Part shown: positions 1,990-9,920 of the stretch, piece after piece
Position numbering within the stretch: position 1 is the first letter of the stretch
Layout: each line of letters starts with the position of its first letter
From: Micromonospora arborensis
GTDB lineage: Bacteria > Actinomycetota > Actinomycetes > Mycobacteriales > Micromonosporaceae
Assembly: GCF_003205615.1 (NCBI RefSeq)
Contig: NZ_PYBV01000009.1
Location: 124,001 to 188,000 of the forward strand
Direction: 5' to 3'
DNA: 64,000 nucleotides
Notes under the pieces: model-generated
Seen by the model: the letters and a program-made list of their open reading frames with translations, nothing else
Told to the model about the DNA's origin: nothing
The model's database searches: none
Position numbers and translations under genes: made by a program

Positions 1990-3204
1990 ATGGCCGAGTT
2001 CTCGCTCGACCTGAACGAGGAACAGCGGGATCTACGCGACTGGGTGCACGGCTTCGCCGCCGAGGTCGTGCGCCCGGCCGCCGCCGAGTGGGACGAACGC
2101 GAGGACACCCCGTGGCCGGTGATCCAGGAAGCCGCCAAGGTCGGCCTCTACGGCTTCGAGTTCCTCGCCACCTGCTGGGCCGACCCGACCGGGCTCTCCC
2201 TGCCCATCGCCAGCGAGGAACTCTTCTGGGGTGACGCCGGCATCGGGCTGAGCATCTTCGGCACCTCACTCGCCGTCGCCGCCATCTACGGCGCCGGCAC
2301 CCCCGACCAGATGGTCGAGTGGGTGCCGCAGTGCTTCGGCGACATCGACTCGCCGACCGTCGCCGCGTTCTGTACGAGCGAGCCGGAAGCCGGCTCGGAC
2401 GTCGGCGCGATGCGCACCCGGGCCGTCTACGACGAGGCCACCGACGAGTGGGTGCTGACCGGGCAGAAGGCGTACGCCACCAACGGCGGGATCGCCGGAG
2501 TGCACGTGGTCACCGCCTCCGTCGACCCCACACTCGGCTCCCGGGGCCAGGCGGCCTTCGTCGTACCACCGGGCACCCCCGGCCTGACCGCCACCCGCAA
2601 GCTGCGCAAACTCGGGCTCCGCGCGTCCCACACCGCCGACGTCTTCCTCGACGGGGTACGCGTACCCGGCCGCTGCCTGCTCGGCGGGCGGGACGCCCTG
2701 CTGGAACGCCTCGACCGGGCCCGCTCCGGTCAGCGGGCCACCGGGCAGGCCGCGATGCGGACCTTCGAGCTGTCCCGACCCACGGTCGGCGCGCAGGCAC
2801 TCGGCGTGGCCCGGGCCGCCTACGAGTACGCCCTGGACTACGCGAAGGACCGCGTCCAGTTCGGGCGGCCGATCATCGAGAACCAGGCGGTCGCGTTCGC
2901 GCTGGCCGACATGCGGACGGAGATCGACGCGGCGCGGCTGCTCGTCTGGCGGGCGTCGTGGATGGGCCGCAACAACCGCCCGTTCACCGCGGGCGAGGGG
3001 TCGATGTCCAAGCTCAAGGCCGGTGAGGTCGCGGTGTCGGTCACCGAGAAGGCGGTGCAACTGCTCGGCGGAGCCGGCTTCCTGCGCGACCACCCCGTCG
3101 AACGCTGGTACCGCGACGCCAAGATCTACACCATCTTCGAGGGCACCTCCGAAATCCAGCGGCTGGTCATCTCCCGGGCGATCTCCGGGATGCAGATCCG
3201 CTGA
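1990..3204 (+). CDS. Acyl-CoA dehydrogenase
   Basis: A 404-residue flavoprotein of the acyl-CoA dehydrogenase family, which introduces the alpha-beta double bond into acyl-CoAs. The N-terminal helical domain (LNEEQRDLRDWVHGFA), the middle beta domain (AAFCTSEPEAGSDVGAM, GQKAYATNG) and the C-terminal helical domain (YAKDRVQFGRPIIENQAV, LLGGAGFLRDHPVERWYRDA) are all present. The IFEGTSEIQRL motif contains the catalytic glutamate position. It follows the SCP2 gene after one base. With the TetR repressor upstream, this looks like a ligand-induced lipid catabolic unit, but chain length and substrate cannot be read from sequence. Confidence 0.93.
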   Translation: MAEFSLDLNEEQRDLRDWVHGFAAEVVRPAAAEWDEREDTPWPVIQEAAKVGLYGFEFLATCWADPTGLSLPIASEELFWGDAGIGLSIFGTSLAVAAIYGAGTPDQMVEWVPQCFGDIDSPTVAAFCTSEPEAGSDVGAMRTRAVYDEATDEWVLTGQKAYATNGGIAGVHVVTASVDPTLGSRGQAAFVVPPGTPGLTATRKLRKLGLRASHTADVFLDGVRVPGRCLLGGRDALLERLDRARSGQRATGQAAMRTFELSRPTVGAQALGVARAAYEYALDYAKDRVQFGRPIIENQAVAFALADMRTEIDAARLLVWRASWMGRNNRPFTAGEGSMSKLKAGEVAVSVTEKAVQLLGGAGFLRDHPVERWYRDAKIYTIFEGTSEIQRLVISRAISGMQIR

Positions 3205-3394
3205 CCGACCGGGCCGACTCCCTGGCGTTGTCCTCATGGCACTGGCCCCGTCAAACTTCCGTCAGGAAAGCAGGGTTGCGTGTCAAGGAAGCGTTAAGGT
3301 TGGCGCCCGTCTGCTCTTTCCTCAGCAATCATCTTCTAGCGGCAAAAAAAGTCGACAACGCTTCGATCGACTGCCGAATCTAGAAGGAGTTGAA

Positions 3395-3577
3395 ATGGAA
3401 CAGTCCGAGTCCGTCAAGAAGATTCAGGCCAAGCGGATCGCCCTCGGTGTGGTCGCCGCGGCCGCGCTCGGTGGCGCAATCGCCGCCCCCGCCGTCGCCG
3501 CGACCCAGTCGCACGACAGCACCACCCAGCAGGTGGCGTGGGACAAGGACATGCACGGCGAGCCCTACTACATCTGA
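3395..3577 (+). CDS. Signal-bearing small peptide, candidate RiPP precursor
   Basis: A 60-residue peptide starting at ATG 3395 behind a strong ribosome binding site (AGAAGGAG, 3383-3390). Residues 1-36 look like a Sec signal or leader: a charged start (MEQSESVKKIQAKR), a hydrophobic Ala/Gly/Val core, and an APAVAA ending. The remaining 24 or so residues are polar and aromatic, containing TQSHDSTTQQVAW and ending DKDMHGEPYYI. The gene precedes a hairpin and genes for a TPR protein and a JmjC-type oxygenase. That order (small strongly translated peptide, hairpin, modifying enzyme) resembles a ribosomally made, post-translationally modified peptide locus. It could also be a plain secreted peptide. 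No known precursor family was recognised. Confidence 0.75.
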   Translation: MEQSESVKKIQAKRIALGVVAAAALGGAIAAPAVAATQSHDSTTQQVAWDKDMHGEPYYI

Positions 3578-3587
3578 CGATCGACGT

Positions 3588-3651
3588 GGTAACCGCAGGC
3601 CCGCTCATCGAGGGTCCTGGTCTCCACGGGCCCGGCGGGCCTGCGGCTACC
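3588..3651 (+). terminator. Hairpin between peptide gene and TPR gene
   Basis: Arms GGTAACCGCAGGCCCGC (3588-3604) and GCGGGCCTGCGGCTACC (3635-3651) pair over 17 bases with one mismatch around a 30-base loop. It lies 11 bases after the peptide stop codon and has no T-run, so it is more likely a partial terminator or mRNA 3'-end stabiliser that keeps peptide expression above that of the downstream genes. Confidence 0.6.
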
Positions 3652-3717
3652 GCCCCCCGACTGATCCAAACAACGGCGCTGGCCGCGATCCGGCCATGCC
3701 GAAGGAATCTCACGACG

Positions 3718-4941
3718 ATGGAATTGCCGAAATACCAATCGGTGCCCGGCGCACAGGCGCTGACCGAGCGGCTGATGTCGCTCACCACCGCCGGCCAGCC
3801 GGCTGCCTGCCCTGTCTACGTTGGTCTGGGCGCGCCGGTCACCCGTTCCACCAACCTCGCGCTCATCACCTACGGCATCGCCCGCCACCTGGTCGACGGG
3901 GCAGCGCACCTGGTCCCCGCCTTCAACACCTTCCCGCAACCTGAACGGCGCATCCTCGACGCGGCCAGCTGGGATCGGGTCGACGCCACGAGCAGCGACT
4001 TCGCCGCGATGCCGGTAGACCTCGCCAGTGAACTGTGGTGGCTGGTGGACGAGGCCTGTCGAGACCCCGATTCCCTGACGGCTCAGGAGCGCTGCGTGGC
4101 GAGTGACCTCATGCTGCGCCTGGGGTACCCGTGGCGGGCCGGTGAGATCCTCGGCCTCCTCGACGCACGGATCGCCGATCACCCCGTCAACCCCGAGACG
4201 GCCCGCGCCGAGATGGCCGCCCTGGTGCGGCTGCACCCTGGTGCGTACCCGCTGCTCGAAGAATGGGCATTGCGGGCCGCGTCCGACCCAGCCGTCCCAC
4301 CCGAGACCCGGGTCCGGCTCGCCAACTACGTCGTCGTCGCCAACGGCAAGCGCGGAGCCGATGTGCCAGCGCTGCACCGGGCCGTCAAGCTCGGACGGCG
4401 GGCGATGACGGAGGTGACCCTGGTCGGGATGGATCGCCACCTCACCGAGCACACGTTCTACCGGGCCATCGCCTACGAACCGTACTTGCGCGGAGACATC
4501 CCAAAGACGATGGAGTTGCTCGACCGAGCCGCTGCCGCCCTGGCAAGGGCCGAGCCGGCGACCGGGCCGTTGGAGCTCCTCTCGTGGAAGGACCATGCCT
4601 TCCCGATGTACGAAACACGCGCCAAAACCCTGCTCGGCCAGGGCCGGATCGGCGAGGCGCTGAAGGCTACGAGCACGCTGACCGCCATCAGTCCGTACGA
4701 CCATCGGGTGTGGGAAGCGCATGCCAAAGCGCTCGTCGCCGCCGACGACCTCATCGGCGCCATCCGCGCCTGGAAGCAGATCCTCCCGCAGGGAGGACTG
4801 CCGGTCGCGCCGGCCGCCTTCTACCTCGGCTGGGCATACCGGCAGCTCGGCGACGTCGGACTAGCCCGCGAGTACCTCACCCTCTCCCGAGCCATCGACC
4901 CCACTCCCCCGGTATCGGCCGAACAGATGGCAGGCATGTGA
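3718..4941 (+). CDS. TPR-like protein of the peptide locus
   Basis: A 407-residue cytosolic protein with no signal or membrane segment. The N-terminal third (MELPKYQSV..., CPVYVGLGAPVTRSTNLAL) matches no domain I recognise. The C-terminal half is helical and repeat-like: segments such as LLDRAAAALARAEPATG, YETRAKTLLGQGRIGEALKA and AFYLGWAYRQLGDVGLAREY have tetratricopeptide spacing. ATG 3718 is chosen because GAAGGAA lies upstream and residues before it are low-complexity and run through the hairpin. The oxygenase gene follows after 5 bases. It may bind the peptide substrate or the oxygenase, since TPR folds usually hold peptides; this is inference. Confidence 0.7.
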   Translation: MELPKYQSVPGAQALTERLMSLTTAGQPAACPVYVGLGAPVTRSTNLALITYGIARHLVDGAAHLVPAFNTFPQPERRILDAASWDRVDATSSDFAAMPVDLASELWWLVDEACRDPDSLTAQERCVASDLMLRLGYPWRAGEILGLLDARIADHPVNPETARAEMAALVRLHPGAYPLLEEWALRAASDPAVPPETRVRLANYVVVANGKRGADVPALHRAVKLGRRAMTEVTLVGMDRHLTEHTFYRAIAYEPYLRGDIPKTMELLDRAAAALARAEPATGPLELLSWKDHAFPMYETRAKTLLGQGRIGEALKATSTLTAISPYDHRVWEAHAKALVAADDLIGAIRAWKQILPQGGLPVAPAAFYLGWAYRQLGDVGLAREYLTLSRAIDPTPPVSAEQMAGM

Positions 4942-4946
4942 CGGCT

Positions 4947-5864
4947 ATGAATGCGATGAACGACAGTATGATCCTCCGTAATCTGGTCGGAGACGTCCCG
5001 GCATTCCTCGCGGAGTCGTGGCGGCGAGTCCCGACAGTCCTGCGCCCGACACAGCCCCCGGTGGGCGTCTTCACCGTGCGGGACCTGGAGCTGTCACTCG
5101 CCGGGGGCCTGCTCCGAGCCCCCTACGTCGCGGTCCTCGGGGCAGGTGAGAACCCGCTGGACGGAATCGTGGCACCCCGCACCGTTGCCGACCGGCACCT
5201 GCCCGACTATGTGGACCCGGAGAAGGTCTCCCGGCGGGTGGCCGAGGGCGCGAGCGTGCTGCTGCGCAACATCGAGCACTGGCACGCACCCACCGCGGCG
5301 CTGGCGTACGAGCTGGGTACCGACCTAGGGCGCCCCGTCGAAGCGTTCTTCTTCCTCACACCTGCCGAGCGTCAGGCTCTCCCACCGCACCGCGACGACG
5401 CCGACGTGTTCGTCGTCCAGGTGCAGGGGCAGAAGGAGTGGACGGTCCACTCCACGCCGACGGACGGGCGGTGGGACCGTGGCCGAGCCGAGCAGCCCGG
5501 GCAGGTCGTGCTGCGGGTCAGGCTGGCGCCGGGAGAGGTGCTCTACCTGCCCCGGGGCGCGGCGCACAGCGCGGTGGCGGCCGACGGATCCACCAGCGCA
5601 CACCTGTCGCTGACCGTACGGGACATCGGGGTCGCCCACCTGGGCGCGGTCGTGCAGCGGTACCTCGCGGCGGAGCTGGAGCTGCCTCCCCGCCCAGTCG
5701 AGGAGACCGGGCTTCTCGACACGGCAGCCCGGCTGCTGGAGCATCAGCGCACCCGACTGGCCGAGCTGACCCCGCAGGAGCTGCTCGACGCTGCCCGCGC
5801 GGCGGCCCTAGCGCTGCGCCACAAGCCGCCGACGACGCCCTGCCTCGGCGAGGCGCGACGATGA
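4947..5864 (+). CDS. JmjC/cupin Fe(II) 2-oxoglutarate oxygenase
   Basis: A 305-residue protein with the cupin_4/JmjC fold of ribosomal-oxygenase-like hydroxylases, which hydroxylate protein or peptide side chains. Candidate iron ligands are His148 and Asp150 (PPHRDDADVF) and His207 (LPRGAAHSAV); Lys163 in QGQKEW is the likely 2-oxoglutarate contact. The N-terminal block KVSRRVAEGASVLLRNIEHW and the C-terminal helical region are typical of the dimerising members. ATG 4947 lies 5 bases after the TPR stop; in-frame ATGs at 4956 and 4968 are alternatives. It is the only evident tailoring enzyme beside the small peptide, so the peptide or its TPR partner is the natural substrate candidate. Confidence 0.8.
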   Translation: MNAMNDSMILRNLVGDVPAFLAESWRRVPTVLRPTQPPVGVFTVRDLELSLAGGLLRAPYVAVLGAGENPLDGIVAPRTVADRHLPDYVDPEKVSRRVAEGASVLLRNIEHWHAPTAALAYELGTDLGRPVEAFFFLTPAERQALPPHRDDADVFVVQVQGQKEWTVHSTPTDGRWDRGRAEQPGQVVLRVRLAPGEVLYLPRGAAHSAVAADGSTSAHLSLTVRDIGVAHLGAVVQRYLAAELELPPRPVEETGLLDTAARLLEHQRTRLAELTPQELLDAARAAALALRHKPPTTPCLGEARR

Positions 5865-6096
5865 CAGACTCGCGCTGATCGCTGGGCTTCCTCCTGGCCA
5901 GGCCCGTTCCGACCAGGGCCGGGCGGCACACTCCGACCGTACCGCCCGAGGAATCCACGATCCGTGCCGTCTTCGTCACCCCACGCCGACGCCGGCTGGG
6001 CCTGGCGTCACGCCAGGTGCATGATCAGGGAAGACGCCCCGACGGACGGGGAGCAACGCCGCCCTGTCCGCGTACCACCCCAAGGAGGTCTGCGGC

Positions 6097-7659
6097 ATGG
6101 ACCTGCCGTTCTTCGTTGCCACGCTGACTCGTCGCGGGCTGCTCATGCCGGGCAGCCCGATCCGGATCGCCTCGCAGCTCAACGCGGTGCGCACGTGGGG
6201 GTGGAGCCTGGCCGGCGAGCTGCGCCAGGCGGCTGGCCGGGACCCCGGCCGGCTGGCGGTCATCGACGAGGACGGCACCGAGCTGACCTATCAGCACCTC
6301 CTCGACCGGGCCGAACGGATGGCCCGGTCGATGCGGGCCGGGCTCGGCGTACAGGCCGGCGACCGGATCGGCGTGCTCTGCCGCAACCACCACGGGCTGA
6401 TCGAGACGATCGTCGCGGCCACCCTGCTGGGTGTGGACGCGGTCCTGGTCAACACCGGGCTCTCCGCCGCCCAACTGGTCACCGTCGCCGAGGAGCAGCG
6501 GCTCCGACTGCTGGTGCACGACGACGAGTTCGCCGAGCGGGTCCTCGGCCTCCCCGCCGAACTGCCCCGCCTCGACGAACGCGCCCGCGAGGAGTTGGTC
6601 GCCGGGGCACTCCCGGGCGAGCTGCGCCCTCCGGAGCGCGACGGCCGGATCATCGTGCTCACCTCGGGCACCACCGGGGCACCCAAGGGCGCCCGACGGC
6701 CCACGCCCAGCGGTTTCGGCCCACTGGTATCCATCATCGATCGCATCCCGCTGCACACCCGGGACCGGGTGATGATCACGGCGCCGATCTTCCACACCTG
6801 GGGGTTCGCCGCCCTCCAGGTCTGTTTCGCGCTACGGGCCACCATCGTGTTGCAGCGCCGCTTCGACCCGGCCGCCACGCTCGCCGCCCTCGTCGACCAC
6901 CGGTGTGACGCGCTGTTCGCCGTACCGGTGATGGTGCAGCGGCTGCTGGAGGTACCCGCGCCAGACCCGCGCCCGCCGCTCAAGGTCGTCGCGGTCAGCG
7001 GTTCGGCGCTGCCCGGTGGGCTCGCACCGAAGTTCATGGACGTCTACGGGGACGTCCTCTACAACCTCTACGGCTCCACCGAGGTCTCCTGGGCCTCCAT
7101 CGCCGGTCCCCAGGATCTGCGCGCGGCACCCACGACGGCTGGCCGGCCACCGTACGGGACCCGCCTGGAGCTGCTCGACGACAACGGTCAGCCGGTGGCG
7201 AACGGGCAGGTCGGGCGGATCTTCGTCGGCAACGAGATGCTCTTCGAGGGCTACACCTCCGGTGCCAGCCGGGAAACCCGCGACGGGCTGCTCGACACCG
7301 GTGACCTCGGCCGGCTCAACCCGGACGGGCTGCTCTTCGTCGATGGCCGGGCCGACGACATGATCGTCTCCGGTGGCGAGAACGTCTTCCCGTCCGAGGT
7401 GGAGGACCTGCTCGCGCAACTGCCGCAGGTCCGCGAAGCGGCGGTGATCGGCGTACCGGACGCCGAGTACGGCCAGCGGCTGTCCGCGTTCCTCGCCCTG
7501 CACCCGGGCGAGACGCTCGACCCCGAGGCGGTACGCGAGTACGTCCGGCACTACCTGGCCCGATTCTCCGTCCCCCGGGACGTGATCTTCGTGAAATACC
7601 TACCCCGTAACGCCACCGGCAAGGTACTCAGCCGAGAATTGCGCCGCTACTACGGCTGA
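6097..7659 (+). CDS. Acyl-CoA synthetase / AMP-dependent ligase
   Basis: A 520-residue member of the ANL adenylating superfamily, activating a carboxylic acid as acyl-AMP and then as thioester. Visible motifs are the P-loop IIVLTSGTTGAPKGARRP, the A5 region YNLYGSTEVSW, the A7 block LLDTGDLGRLNPDGLLFVDG, the hinge GRADDMIVSGGENVFP and the C-terminal catalytic lysine in ATGKVLSREL. The start is well fixed by CCAAGGAGGT 13 bases upstream. About 230 bases without a recognised gene separate it from the oxygenase gene, so membership of the peptide locus is uncertain. Free-standing fatty acyl-CoA ligase is the default call. Confidence 0.9.
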   Translation: MDLPFFVATLTRRGLLMPGSPIRIASQLNAVRTWGWSLAGELRQAAGRDPGRLAVIDEDGTELTYQHLLDRAERMARSMRAGLGVQAGDRIGVLCRNHHGLIETIVAATLLGVDAVLVNTGLSAAQLVTVAEEQRLRLLVHDDEFAERVLGLPAELPRLDERAREELVAGALPGELRPPERDGRIIVLTSGTTGAPKGARRPTPSGFGPLVSIIDRIPLHTRDRVMITAPIFHTWGFAALQVCFALRATIVLQRRFDPAATLAALVDHRCDALFAVPVMVQRLLEVPAPDPRPPLKVVAVSGSALPGGLAPKFMDVYGDVLYNLYGSTEVSWASIAGPQDLRAAPTTAGRPPYGTRLELLDDNGQPVANGQVGRIFVGNEMLFEGYTSGASRETRDGLLDTGDLGRLNPDGLLFVDGRADDMIVSGGENVFPSEVEDLLAQLPQVREAAVIGVPDAEYGQRLSAFLALHPGETLDPEAVREYVRHYLARFSVPRDVIFVKYLPRNATGKVLSRELRRYYG

Positions 7660-7965: not shown

Positions 7966-8478
7966 GTGACGACTGCCCGGCCGCTAGACAGCGAGGAACT
8001 GGCGAGCACGGCTCCGGAGCGCAAGCTTCTGGAAGCCTTCATCGATGCGTACCGCGATGTCATCATCGCCAAGCTCCGAGGGCTGTCGGAGGATGACGCC
8101 CGCCGGAGCCTTGTGCCCTCGCTCACCACGCTCATCGGTCTCGTCAAACACGCCGCCGCTGTTGAGCGGAACTGGTTCCAGCACTGCCTGGGACAGCAGC
8201 CGCGTGAACAGATCACTGGTAACTCGTTCGGTGACGACGCCAGTTGGCAGGTCGGCTCGTACGAGACGGTCGCGGACGTCATCGCGGAGTACACCGCGGT
8301 CTGTGATCGATCGAGGCAGATCGCAGCCGGCTTCGCCCTCGACGACACTGTGTCTCATCCCCGCCTGGGCAGGGTGTCACTGCGCTACATCTACGTGCAC
8401 ATGATCCGCGAGTTGGCGCGGCACTGCGGCCAAGCCGACATCCTCCGGGAGCAGATCGACGGCATGACCGGCGACTAA
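7966..8478 (+). CDS. DinB-like / DUF664 protein
   Basis: A 170-residue helical-bundle protein of the DinB/DUF664 group, the fold used by mycothiol-dependent enzymes of actinomycetes. Supporting features are the N-terminal ERKLLEAFIDAYRDVI helix, a histidine at the end of LIGLVKHAAAVERNWF, a WQVGSYETVADVIAEY helix and the C-terminal MIRELARHCGQADILREQ, where the histidines are placed like the metal triad of the family. Start is GTG 7966; no strong Shine-Dalgarno is visible. It stands alone. A mycothiol S-transferase or detoxification role is a family-level guess. Confidence 0.78.
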   Translation: MTTARPLDSEELASTAPERKLLEAFIDAYRDVIIAKLRGLSEDDARRSLVPSLTTLIGLVKHAAAVERNWFQHCLGQQPREQITGNSFGDDASWQVGSYETVADVIAEYTAVCDRSRQIAAGFALDDTVSHPRLGRVSLRYIYVHMIRELARHCGQADILREQIDGMTGD

Positions 8479-8531
8479 CGTGCATCCTTAGTGATCATCG
8501 AAGCCAGATGACAGCGGCAATGAGGACCAGA

Positions 8532-8575
8532 CAACGCGGGGTTGCCTCCTCGAGGGCAACAACCTCACCAGACTG
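8532..8575 (+). repeat. Left copy of imperfect direct repeat flanking sigma operon
   Basis: This 44-base segment matches 10618-10660 in the same orientation, with one gap and a few mismatches; the last 17 bases (ACAACCTCACCAGACTG) are identical. A GTTGCC...GGCAAC inverted pair lies inside. A second patch with the core CAGGGTGTCG and GGCGGC is also shared (near 8615-8640 and 10805-10835). Confidence 0.6.
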
Positions 8576-8667
8576 GCCCCGACGATTTCACGACTGCTAC
8601 GCCATTAGCGACGACCAGCGACAGGGTGTCGCCCGGCGGCACCCGCTGCCGTCGCACCAACGCAGCT

Positions 8668-8713
8668 CACCGCCCCGGAACCGTCGGCGAGAACCGGCGA
8701 TTCCGGGGCGGTG
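8668..8713 (-). terminator. Terminator of sigma / anti-sigma-like operon
   Basis: Perfect 13-base arms CACCGCCCCGGAA (8668-8680) and TTCCGGGGCGGTG (8701-8713) around a 20-base loop, beginning 11 bases beyond the stop of the minus-strand membrane protein gene. No T-run is present, as is common for high-GC actinomycete terminators. Confidence 0.7.
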
Positions 8714-8723
8714 ACCGCGCCAG

Positions 8724-9920
8724 TCAGTCGGCCATCAGCGAGGGCCGCCAGTCCGGCTTGGCCCCGGCGAGGTCGAGGCGCTGGAACAGGCCCTTCGTGC
8801 CCTGCTCATCGAGCGTGCCGCGGCGTGCGTCGATCTCGACCGCCATCCCCTGCACGTCGAGCACCTCCAGCCTCTCGAACCAGTCCGGATCTTGGGCAGT
8901 GAGGAAGGACGCCTGATGACCGTCGATGGTGGTGTTCGGCGTCCGGAAGAGTTCCTTCCCTTGCAACTCGGCCCGGATCTTGTCGGTCACCTCGACGTAC
9001 GGGGAGAAGCTGACGTCCAGCGTCTTCGCCCCCGGCGCACGGTGATCCGCGGTGGGGGGTTCGGCGCTGTACGTGACGCCGGCGTACCACCGCCAGCCGT
9101 CCGGGGTCAGTGGCCCGTTGACGGTGGTATAAATCGGCCGCAGGCGCTGCGGCAACCCGATGGCCTGGGCCGGCATCCGCACCCGCTCGGTCGTACTGAA
9201 CCTGAGCTTCTGCGCCACGTGCAGGGCGATCTCACGGGCATCCTGCCCCGCCGCCCAGGGTGAGACATCGACTGCGGCCCAGCCGTCCGGGGCGTACTGC
9301 CAGCGGAGGGAGAGCCGGTCAGTGCCGTCGACGTCGTACAGGGTGAAGGTCGCCGCTGCGCCCCGCACATCGGGCGCGGGCGCCGTACTCACGGTGGGTG
9401 CCCGTTGGTCGATGCCCATGACCTGCGGCGCCGGCGGCTTCACCCCCTTCGGATAGAGATGGACCGAAACCCCTGCCCAGTTCTGCGGATCGCCGGCATG
9501 CCCGATCAGAAAGACACCCGGACCACTCTGGGTCAGACCCGCCCCGTACTGCAGACTGGCTAGGCCCGACGGCAACCAACCGAACCGAACGTACTGAACG
9601 GTCGGGTCGATCGTCTCCAACGCGGCCGGGATCCGGGACGCGTCGGGCGACGTCACCTCCCCGGTGTACGGCTCCAGCGGAGCCAGGGCGCCGACCATCT
9701 CCAGCGACGGCGGCGACGACCGGTCCGGGTCGACCAGACCCGGCACCGTGACAGCACCGACGGCCACCGCGACCACCGCCAGTGCGGCACCCGCGCCCCT
9801 CGCGTACCAACGCTGCCGCCGCCCGGCGATCATCGCCCGTTCGATGTTCACAGCGGACGGCTTCTCGGCCGACTCGACCTCGGCGCGCATCAACCGCGCC
9901 ACATCCATGTCCTCGATCAT
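8724..9920 (-). CDS. Membrane-anchored partner of ECF sigma factor
   Basis: A 398-residue protein with a short cytosolic N-terminus (MIEDMDVARLMRAEVESAEK), one transmembrane segment at about residues 42-62 (AGAALAVVAVAVGAVTV) and a large extracytoplasmic domain of unknown fold. It is encoded immediately after a SigE-type sigma gene, and this arrangement is typical of anti-sigma or sensor partners in actinomycetes. No zinc-binding HxxxCxxC motif of classical ZAS anti-sigma factors is visible. A TTG at 9926 overlapping the sigma stop is an alternative start; ATG 9920 is preferred. The inducing signal is unknown. Confidence 0.7.
   Translation of the reverse strand: MIEDMDVARLMRAEVESAEKPSAVNIERAMIAGRRQRWYARGAGAALAVVAVAVGAVTVPGLVDPDRSSPPSLEMVGALAPLEPYTGEVTSPDASRIPAALETIDPTVQYVRFGWLPSGLASLQYGAGLTQSGPGVFLIGHAGDPQNWAGVSVHLYPKGVKPPAPQVMGIDQRAPTVSTAPAPDVRGAAATFTLYDVDGTDRLSLRWQYAPDGWAAVDVSPWAAGQDAREIALHVAQKLRFSTTERVRMPAQAIGLPQRLRPIYTTVNGPLTPDGWRWYAGVTYSAEPPTADHRAPGAKTLDVSFSPYVEVTDKIRAELQGKELFRTPNTTIDGHQASFLTAQDPDWFERLEVLDVQGMAVEIDARRGTLDEQGTKGLFQRLDLAGAKPDWRPSLMAD

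Follow-up and report, generated by a model that had tools for sequence, protein, structure and literature searches.

What might a JmjC-type oxygenase do beside a small peptide gene and a gene for a tetratricopeptide repeat (TPR) protein in an actinomycete genome? The question is raised by a three-gene cassette in Micromonospora arborensis, which lies within a stretch of 64,000 nucleotides (contig NZ_PYBV01000009.1, forward-strand positions 124,001 to 188,000) that we call the window and whose numbering is used here. The cassette encodes, all on the forward strand, a 60-residue peptide (open reading frame (ORF) 3395-3577; MEQSESVKKIQAKRIALGVVAAAALGGAIAAPAVAATQSHDSTTQQVAWDKDMHGEPYYI), a 407-residue TPR protein (3718-4941), and a 305-residue JmjC protein (4947-5864). 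From comparison with related loci, we favor with moderate confidence the view that the JmjC protein is an Fe(II)/2-oxoglutarate (2OG) enzyme in a cassette like those for ribosomally synthesized and post-translationally modified peptides (RiPPs), and that enzymes of this group read, and probably oxidize, the C-terminal isoleucine of their precursors. A reading of the sequence alone had described the three ORFs, their order, the Shine-Dalgarno sequence of the peptide gene (GAAGGAG, 3383-3389), and the C-terminal HGEPYYI (3554-3574), all of which are borne out by ORF reading. It overlooked the final residue, Ile (codon 3572-3574), which links the locus to a wider system.

The JmjC protein, placed by its ORF, Pfam, an alignment, and a tree, matches the family JmjC_2 (PF08007, E = 4e-19), and its solved-structure relatives are NO66, MINA, and YcfD. 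Residues of the HxD...H metal-binding triad, with two ligands in H148-R149-D150 (5388-5396) and the third at H207 (5565-5567), are invariant across a 19-row alignment. The triad and the fold family together indicate an Fe(II)/2OG peptidyl oxygenase. The TPR protein matches TPR_2 (4.2e-7), with its TPR matches near the C-terminal end and no Pfam match in its first ~100 residues. Thus, the identities proposed earlier for both proteins stand, as does the intact triad. Single-sequence structure models were poor (mean pLDDT of 54.6 for the TPR protein and 34.6 for the JmjC protein) and unusable as search queries, and PADLOC matched none of the three proteins of the cassette.

The peptide, which ends in EPYYI, resembles a precursor. 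Its signal-peptide-like part (3395-3499) combines a K/R-containing start, a hydrophobic stretch (maximum 15-residue hydropathy of 2.31), and A-V-A at residues 33-35, which supports the export-type signal suggested by the sequence-only reading. As that reading had also supposed, the peptide belongs to no family in NCBIfam or Pfam, and when it was used directly as a query against 101 relatives, only signal-sequence-like matches (E of at least 0.0019) were found outside its own locus. A connection emerges through 11 loci that we define as group A (L096, L097, L110, L111, L112, L154, L155, L161, L164, L168, and L169), all of which have tandem JmjC genes, preceded in 11/11 by a signal-like peptide whose tail has the form C..C..DV(I/M). 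A model of the relatives' peptides, from which the window peptide was excluded, ranks the window peptide first in its own 7.3-Mb genome (E = 2.4e-6, with the next match at 8.9e-4). Against an eight-peptide group A model it scores 32.2 bits, whereas none of 2,000 region-wise shuffles exceeds 24.3. In pairwise comparison, its leader is similar to those of three group A precursors (E of 2e-6 to 3e-5). Judged by these comparisons, the window peptide is homologous to group A precursors. NCBIfam and Pfam likewise give no family for its relative P0004. The window locus itself does not share the group A architecture, given that it has a single JmjC gene plus the TPR gene and a tail (HGEPYYI) without Cys; in a MAFFT alignment, HGE--PYYI of the window stands opposite CGDCYPDVI. 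The cassette adds a likely case of a signal-peptide-bearing RiPP precursor.

Among 121 genomes of the genus, a match to the window JmjC protein better than 4.3e-30 occurs only in the window's own. At E <= 1e-32, a search of 394 genomes of the class yielded four with a match, one of them again the window's own. At E <= 1e-40, matches occur in 25 of 392 genomes of another genus (that of genome G797) and in 29 of 172 genomes of its family; the occurrence of very similar loci on Streptomyces plasmids leads us to take this genus for Streptomyces. Among plasmids, 81 records carry a JmjC match, and six regions were read from among the 20 matches listed. The Streptomyces plasmid relatives among those listed are 44-45% identical to the window protein and are encoded by the second of tandem JmjC genes behind a gene for a 63-64-residue peptide. 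Our first set comprised 30 loci, 26 of them from the search of the G797 genus, L112 from the class search, and the plasmid loci L096, L097, and L098.

Relatives with 39-52% identity reside in clusters that carry LanB/LanC, YcaO/TfuA, cytochrome P450, C39-peptidase exporter, or other ATP-binding cassette (ABC) exporter genes. Pfam was run on representative neighbor genes, and the remainder were named by likeness to these. LanB or LanB/LanC neighbors are found in L157, L160, L170, L174, and L175; YcaO and TfuA adjoin the JmjC gene in L166, as does YcaO in L098; P450 genes are neighbors in L163, L167, L171, and L172; C39-type exporters in L153 and L165; ABC exporters, NHLP-type by eye, in L109 and L158; and M16 peptidases in L156, L159, and L162. 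The recurrence of a peptide beside a modifying-type enzyme among relatives agrees with the RiPP-like pairing first proposed for the window.

What these otherwise different precursors have in common is the last residue. Most credible precursors among the small ORFs at first-set loci end in Ile (DVI, HVI, EVI, FCI, or NCI), and in total an Ile-ending precursor is present in 23 of the 29 loci with a candidate. Four loci fetched after the rule had been noticed (L157, L160, L166, and L170), from listings unfiltered on the last residue, all have Ile-ending precursors beside the expected enzymes, with the endings KTTI, DCI, DCI, and CCI. For a masked test, we took 28 loci in 26 further genomes of the G797 family and hid the last four residues of each ORF; candidates were chosen by eye for L241 and otherwise by leader likeness, disregarding the last six residues, to 11 references (10 with terminal Ile). 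Candidates were found in 23 loci, and unmasking revealed Ile endings in 22 of these and Met in one; counted by peptide, 26/27 are Ile-ending. The precursor of L241 represents a previously unseen family, and that of L249, recognized later and unmasked, is also Ile-ending. Weak leader matches at L232 (6438) and L237 (5336), both non-Ile, had been excluded prior to unmasking. As background for the first-set stretches, which partly overlap, Ile is the last residue in 1 of 221 long genes and, among 754 small ORFs with a Shine-Dalgarno sequence, in 31; the latter count includes some of the precursors themselves. At four loci with a more distant JmjC protein (30-33% identity), the last residue of the precursor is Ala in three and Asp in one.

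The window peptide, being Ile-ending, conforms to this association of precursors with JmjC proteins. Compared without their last six residues, the Ile-ending references sort into seven groups that show no match to one another at E <= 0.01, namely group A together with the window peptide, the LanB-linked, P450-linked, YcaO-linked, and C39-linked precursors, the L109 type, and L241. By eye, the last three residues (YYI, DVI, HVI, CCI, DCI, TTI, EVI, and NCI) agree only in the final one. Because of this shared final residue, we think that the JmjC group reads a free C-terminus, with the Ile residue placed within or beside the active site.

Several observations weigh against this interpretation. 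Candidate choice in the first set was not blind, and 22 of the 23 masked picks came through likeness to known leaders; because the references were mostly Ile-ending, these picks do not amount to 23 independent events. The L165 precursor ends in CVI and has a leader like that of L153, and it cannot test the rule because its listing was restricted to Ile-ending ORFs. No precursor candidate was found in L173 (the locus of the first set without one), L230, L240, L247, or L251. There are also exceptions: the precursors of L111 and L237 end in Met; the reading frame in L154 runs on past DVI; the only conserved peptide in the M16-linked loci L156, L159, and L162 has 20 residues and ends in Arg; and the YcaO-linked candidate of L098 ends in Val, which counts against the rule because the JmjC protein of this locus is 40% identical to that of the window and groups with those of L174 and L175. 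Regarding the window itself, the match of its peptide to the model of relatives is confined to the signal-like part (positions 18-53), the tail lacks the relatives' two Cys residues, the JmjC protein has no firm position inside its group in our tree, and none of the three insert genes encodes a dedicated protease or exporter. Finally, the common last residue may mark recognition only.

If C-terminal Ile is indeed the substrate, the following sequence of events can be envisioned. The JmjC oxygenase would bind the precursor C-terminus in the cytosol and oxidize the terminal Ile; side-chain hydroxylation (+16 Da) would be simplest, and attack at the alpha-carbon or the carboxyl end would be possible and more novel. 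The TPR protein might be an accessory that binds the precursor and perhaps restrains its signal sequence until modification is done. We regard it as a candidate for masking because a precursor with a Sec-type signal needs a delay in export and because a partner protein has been proposed to mask the signal in bufferin systems. Export of the modified peptide would then go through Sec (or Tat), and signal-peptidase cleavage behind AVA would free a product of about 25 residues (ATQ...EPYYI).

A stem-loop could set the proportions of the products. The hairpin that the sequence-only reading placed behind the peptide gene is recovered by folding as a strong stem-loop at 3586-3653, between the peptide stop codon and the next gene; the whole spacer (3578-3717) has a folding energy of -73.2 kcal/mol, and both results are without a shuffle control. 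With the same limit, folding of eight group A spacers gave strong stem-loops in seven, L155 being the exception; in L110 the structure lies at the distal end of its spacer. Such a structure might keep the peptide mRNA in excess over the enzyme mRNAs. Rfam gave a single sub-threshold match (E = 0.14).

A bolder version of this proposal, which we hold only tentatively and consider to have less than an even chance of being correct, is that a C-terminus-reading oxygenase has been recruited by seven dissimilar precursor families to cap their terminal Ile, and that the TPR protein of the window holds the same free C-terminus. TPR domains such as that of PEX5 hold C-terminal signals. The cap could possibly be a hydroxylation, perhaps with lactone formation, or an oxidation of the alpha-carbon or carboxyl end. 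RiPP tailoring enzymes are usually bound to one class via the leader. If our proposal is true, this oxygenase group would be independent of class, following one C-terminal residue in lanthipeptide, YcaO, P450-linked, and signal-peptide precursors alike. It would also supply a genome-mining rule (this JmjC group plus an Ile-ending small ORF) and a portable tool for C-terminal tailoring. The window cassette, with one peptide, one enzyme, and one accessory protein, would be a small test system.

The most durable alternative, which we nevertheless regard as unlikely, holds that the C-terminal Ile is a docking handle only and that the JmjC enzyme hydroxylates an internal residue, such as Tyr, Asp/Glu, Pro, His, or Trp in the window tail. 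YcfD, MINA, and NO66 act on internal Arg or His residues, which fits such a role. Likewise, the JmjC enzymes BipG and PbsQ of RiPP pathways target an internal ornithine, as outlined in two reports (PMC12707348, PMC12257519). Each group A locus has two JmjC genes, hence at least one of the two enzymes may act away from the C-terminus. The finding that precursors across families share only the very last of their final three residues points the other way.

Somewhat lower in our estimation, and also unlikely, is the idea that the TPR protein is an obligate adaptor that presents the peptide to the oxygenase. Its appeal lies in the adjacency of the genes within one insert, in a TPR homologue whose gene overlaps that of a PF13640-type 2OG oxygenase (L061), and in another with a ThiF-type protein and a small ORF as its neighbors (L062). 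The distribution of the TPR protein argues otherwise. We searched 397 genomes, sampled from the taxonomic order, at a cut-off of E <= 1e-5, and found a TPR match in 11 besides the window's own. Seven of these are convincing and were read in stretches of 6-12 kb; the other four (in genomes G134, G242, G306, and G330) are weak and partial, with E values of 4e-10 to 9e-6. No window-type JmjC gene and no similar peptide was found in the fetched stretches of the seven loci (0/7), and conversely the TPR query found nothing in 58 related JmjC loci (0/58), namely 27 of the first set, 28 new ones, and the plasmid loci L096, L097, and L098. Plasmids gave no match to the TPR protein, and L047, the sole match in a TPR genome-contig scan, proved spurious on reading its ORFs and was discarded. 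Thus, the suggestion that the trio, or the TPR/JmjC pair, forms a conserved unit is not supported, and conservation of the peptide in relatives divides accordingly, since it is kept with JmjC and not with TPR. As far as gene neighborhoods indicate, the TPR protein is optional and the conserved unit is the peptide plus JmjC; the TPR protein may still serve a peptide pathway.

The neighborhoods of the TPR homologues are diverse. In L061 (4315-6038), the TPR gene overlaps by 4 bp the gene for the PF13640-type oxygenase, which has 170 residues and belongs to a different family. In L062 (1917-7637 in match orientation), a locus of a congener, the TPR homologue is accompanied by the ThiF-type protein, which has a weak match to leader-binding domains of thiazole/oxazole-modified microcin (TOMM) systems, by an alpha/beta hydrolase, by a gene resembling the major facilitator superfamily by eye, and by a 52-residue Cys/His-rich ORF; this may possibly be a separate RiPP cluster. 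In L063, the TPR gene adjoins one for a KGGVGR ATPase and one whose product weakly matches FxsC, and in L064 to L067 it lies downstream of a regulator-like gene, of which only that of L064 was scanned (ArsR-type helix-turn-helix (HTH)). Given these varied neighbors, the TPR family appears to operate in several contexts, of which some are related to peptides.

It is improbable that the JmjC protein is a copy of a ribosomal-protein hydroxylase (ROX/YcfD-like) and that the peptide is an unrelated secreted peptide. YcfD, MINA, and NO66 act on ribosomal proteins, and, as members of JmjC_2 and the best solved relatives of the window protein, they share its fold family and its HxD...H triad. The window protein is shorter, with 305 residues versus chains of 373-489, and its closer relatives sit within RiPP-type peptide clusters. 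Moreover, the window genome encodes a separate relative, with a 427-aa frame and 36% identity to the window JmjC protein. This ~427-aa type accounts for most of the matches at E <= 1e-10, which occur in 115 of the 121 genomes of the genus. A group with 100/100 support unites five sampled members and does not contain the window protein, which therefore lies outside the ROX subgroup on the assumption that the ~427-aa type represents ROX. The same tree, from which L111_b and L168_a (broken rows) and six more rows were left out, separates the window protein from the L068, L099, and L100 rows with support of 100/99.

Equally improbable is an RRNPP-type quorum-sensing pair, in which an exported peptide is re-imported and read by a TPR receptor and JmjC is a neighbor or a peptide-modifying extra, because, even though a small exportable peptide adjoins a TPR protein here, the latter has no HTH match in NCBIfam or Pfam that would represent an RRNPP-type effector domain, no similar peptide lies near the seven TPR homologues, and the peptide partners JmjC rather than TPR.

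Among known systems, the biphenomycin-type RiPPs offer a close enzymatic likeness. BipG and PbsQ are described as JmjC (cupin) ornithine hydroxylases (PMC12707348, PMC12257519), and thus as Fe(II)/2OG enzymes that hydroxylate a ribosomal precursor ahead of proteolytic release; we draw the likeness from published description rather than from sequence comparison. They differ in that their target is an internal ornithine made by an arginase and in that their clusters include MNIO and B12-radical SAM enzymes, whereas the eight window proteins scanned gave no match to MNIO, B12-radical SAM, or arginase families. The bip gene list labels BipC a TPR protein, yet the same paper demonstrates that it is an arginase; for this reason, BipC is no parallel to the window TPR protein.

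Bufferins and other MNIO-modified RiPPs provide a likeness of another kind. According to PMC12452194, a Sec signal peptide replaces the leader in these systems, a partner protein of bufferins may, as proposed there, keep the signal covered until the precursor is modified, and signal-peptide-bearing precursors are called rare among bacterial RiPPs. The window precursor likewise has a signal-type N-terminus and a possible masking partner. The bufferin enzyme is an MNIO (DUF692) protein with mostly Cys targets and a DUF2063-type partner, in contrast to JmjC and TPR in the window; no DUF692 protein was found among the eight scanned, which sets the locus apart from bufferin-type systems. Bacterial JmjC (PF08007) homologues in RiPP-like contexts are remarked upon in a survey of RiPP recognition elements (RREs) (PMC12710340), which, in the part available, concerns eukaryotic RRE-JmjC fusions and bacterial homologues with ~30% identity and states no precursor rule. 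Among the matches listed from the open-license literature, titles and abstract openings gave nothing on this JmjC group or on the Ile rule.

Other features of the JmjC loci merit mention. Precursor genes are duplicated in tandem before the JmjC pair in L231 (three, 8239-8949), L232 (two, 8451-8893), and L161 (two, identical, 3078-3573). In L154 (~3540-3760 in match orientation), the extended group A frame represents either a real extension or a sequence error. Precursors of 27 residues, such as MKMIKALVSKFKKDEDLASHAWVLHVI, precede P450-like and JmjC genes in 12 loci (L163, L167, L171, L172, L242-L246, L248, L249, and L252), and a literature search found no mention of their motif WVLHVI. A second family of peptides with tandem JmjC genes, starting with M(G/A)(I/L)RD and ending in Ala, occurs in L068 (5335-7382), L099 (4872-6894), and L100 (4897-6876), followed by AAC(3)-like genes in L099 and L100 and accompanied by YcaO, TfuA, and an S9 peptidase in L068. 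L153 and L165/L191 combine GG-type leader peptides (..EELDDIVGG..), a C39-type exporter, and JmjC with condensation- or adenylation-like genes (by eye), and are perhaps RiPP/non-ribosomal hybrids. The M16-linked peptide, M.(N/K)HASILRPRLDK(V/I)KPQ(S/D)R, is encoded on the strand opposite the JmjC gene (L156 3395-3457; L159 2478-2540 in match orientation; L162 within 3696-3926) and may be a very small precursor of a separate kind.

How the cassette came to its present location can be judged from its flanks, the genes for an acyl-CoA dehydrogenase (ending at 3204) and an AMP-ligase (starting at 6097). These genes are at most 246 bp apart in 9 of 12 congeners checked and are separated by ~1 kb in two, with only a partial match (residues 1-41) in one. 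The corresponding gap in the window is 2,892 bp and contains the peptide, TPR, and JmjC genes. Because the flanks adjoin in most congeners, the three genes seem to be one inserted unit, whose limits, from flank alignments with three congeners, are 3223-5949 at minimum and 3205-6075 at maximum. The ~2.9-kb cassette was probably acquired horizontally. In one congener (G002, L176 3041-3869), the spacer between the same flank genes carries a different, 105-aa ORF on the opposite strand, and therefore this spacer may be a recurrent place of insertion.

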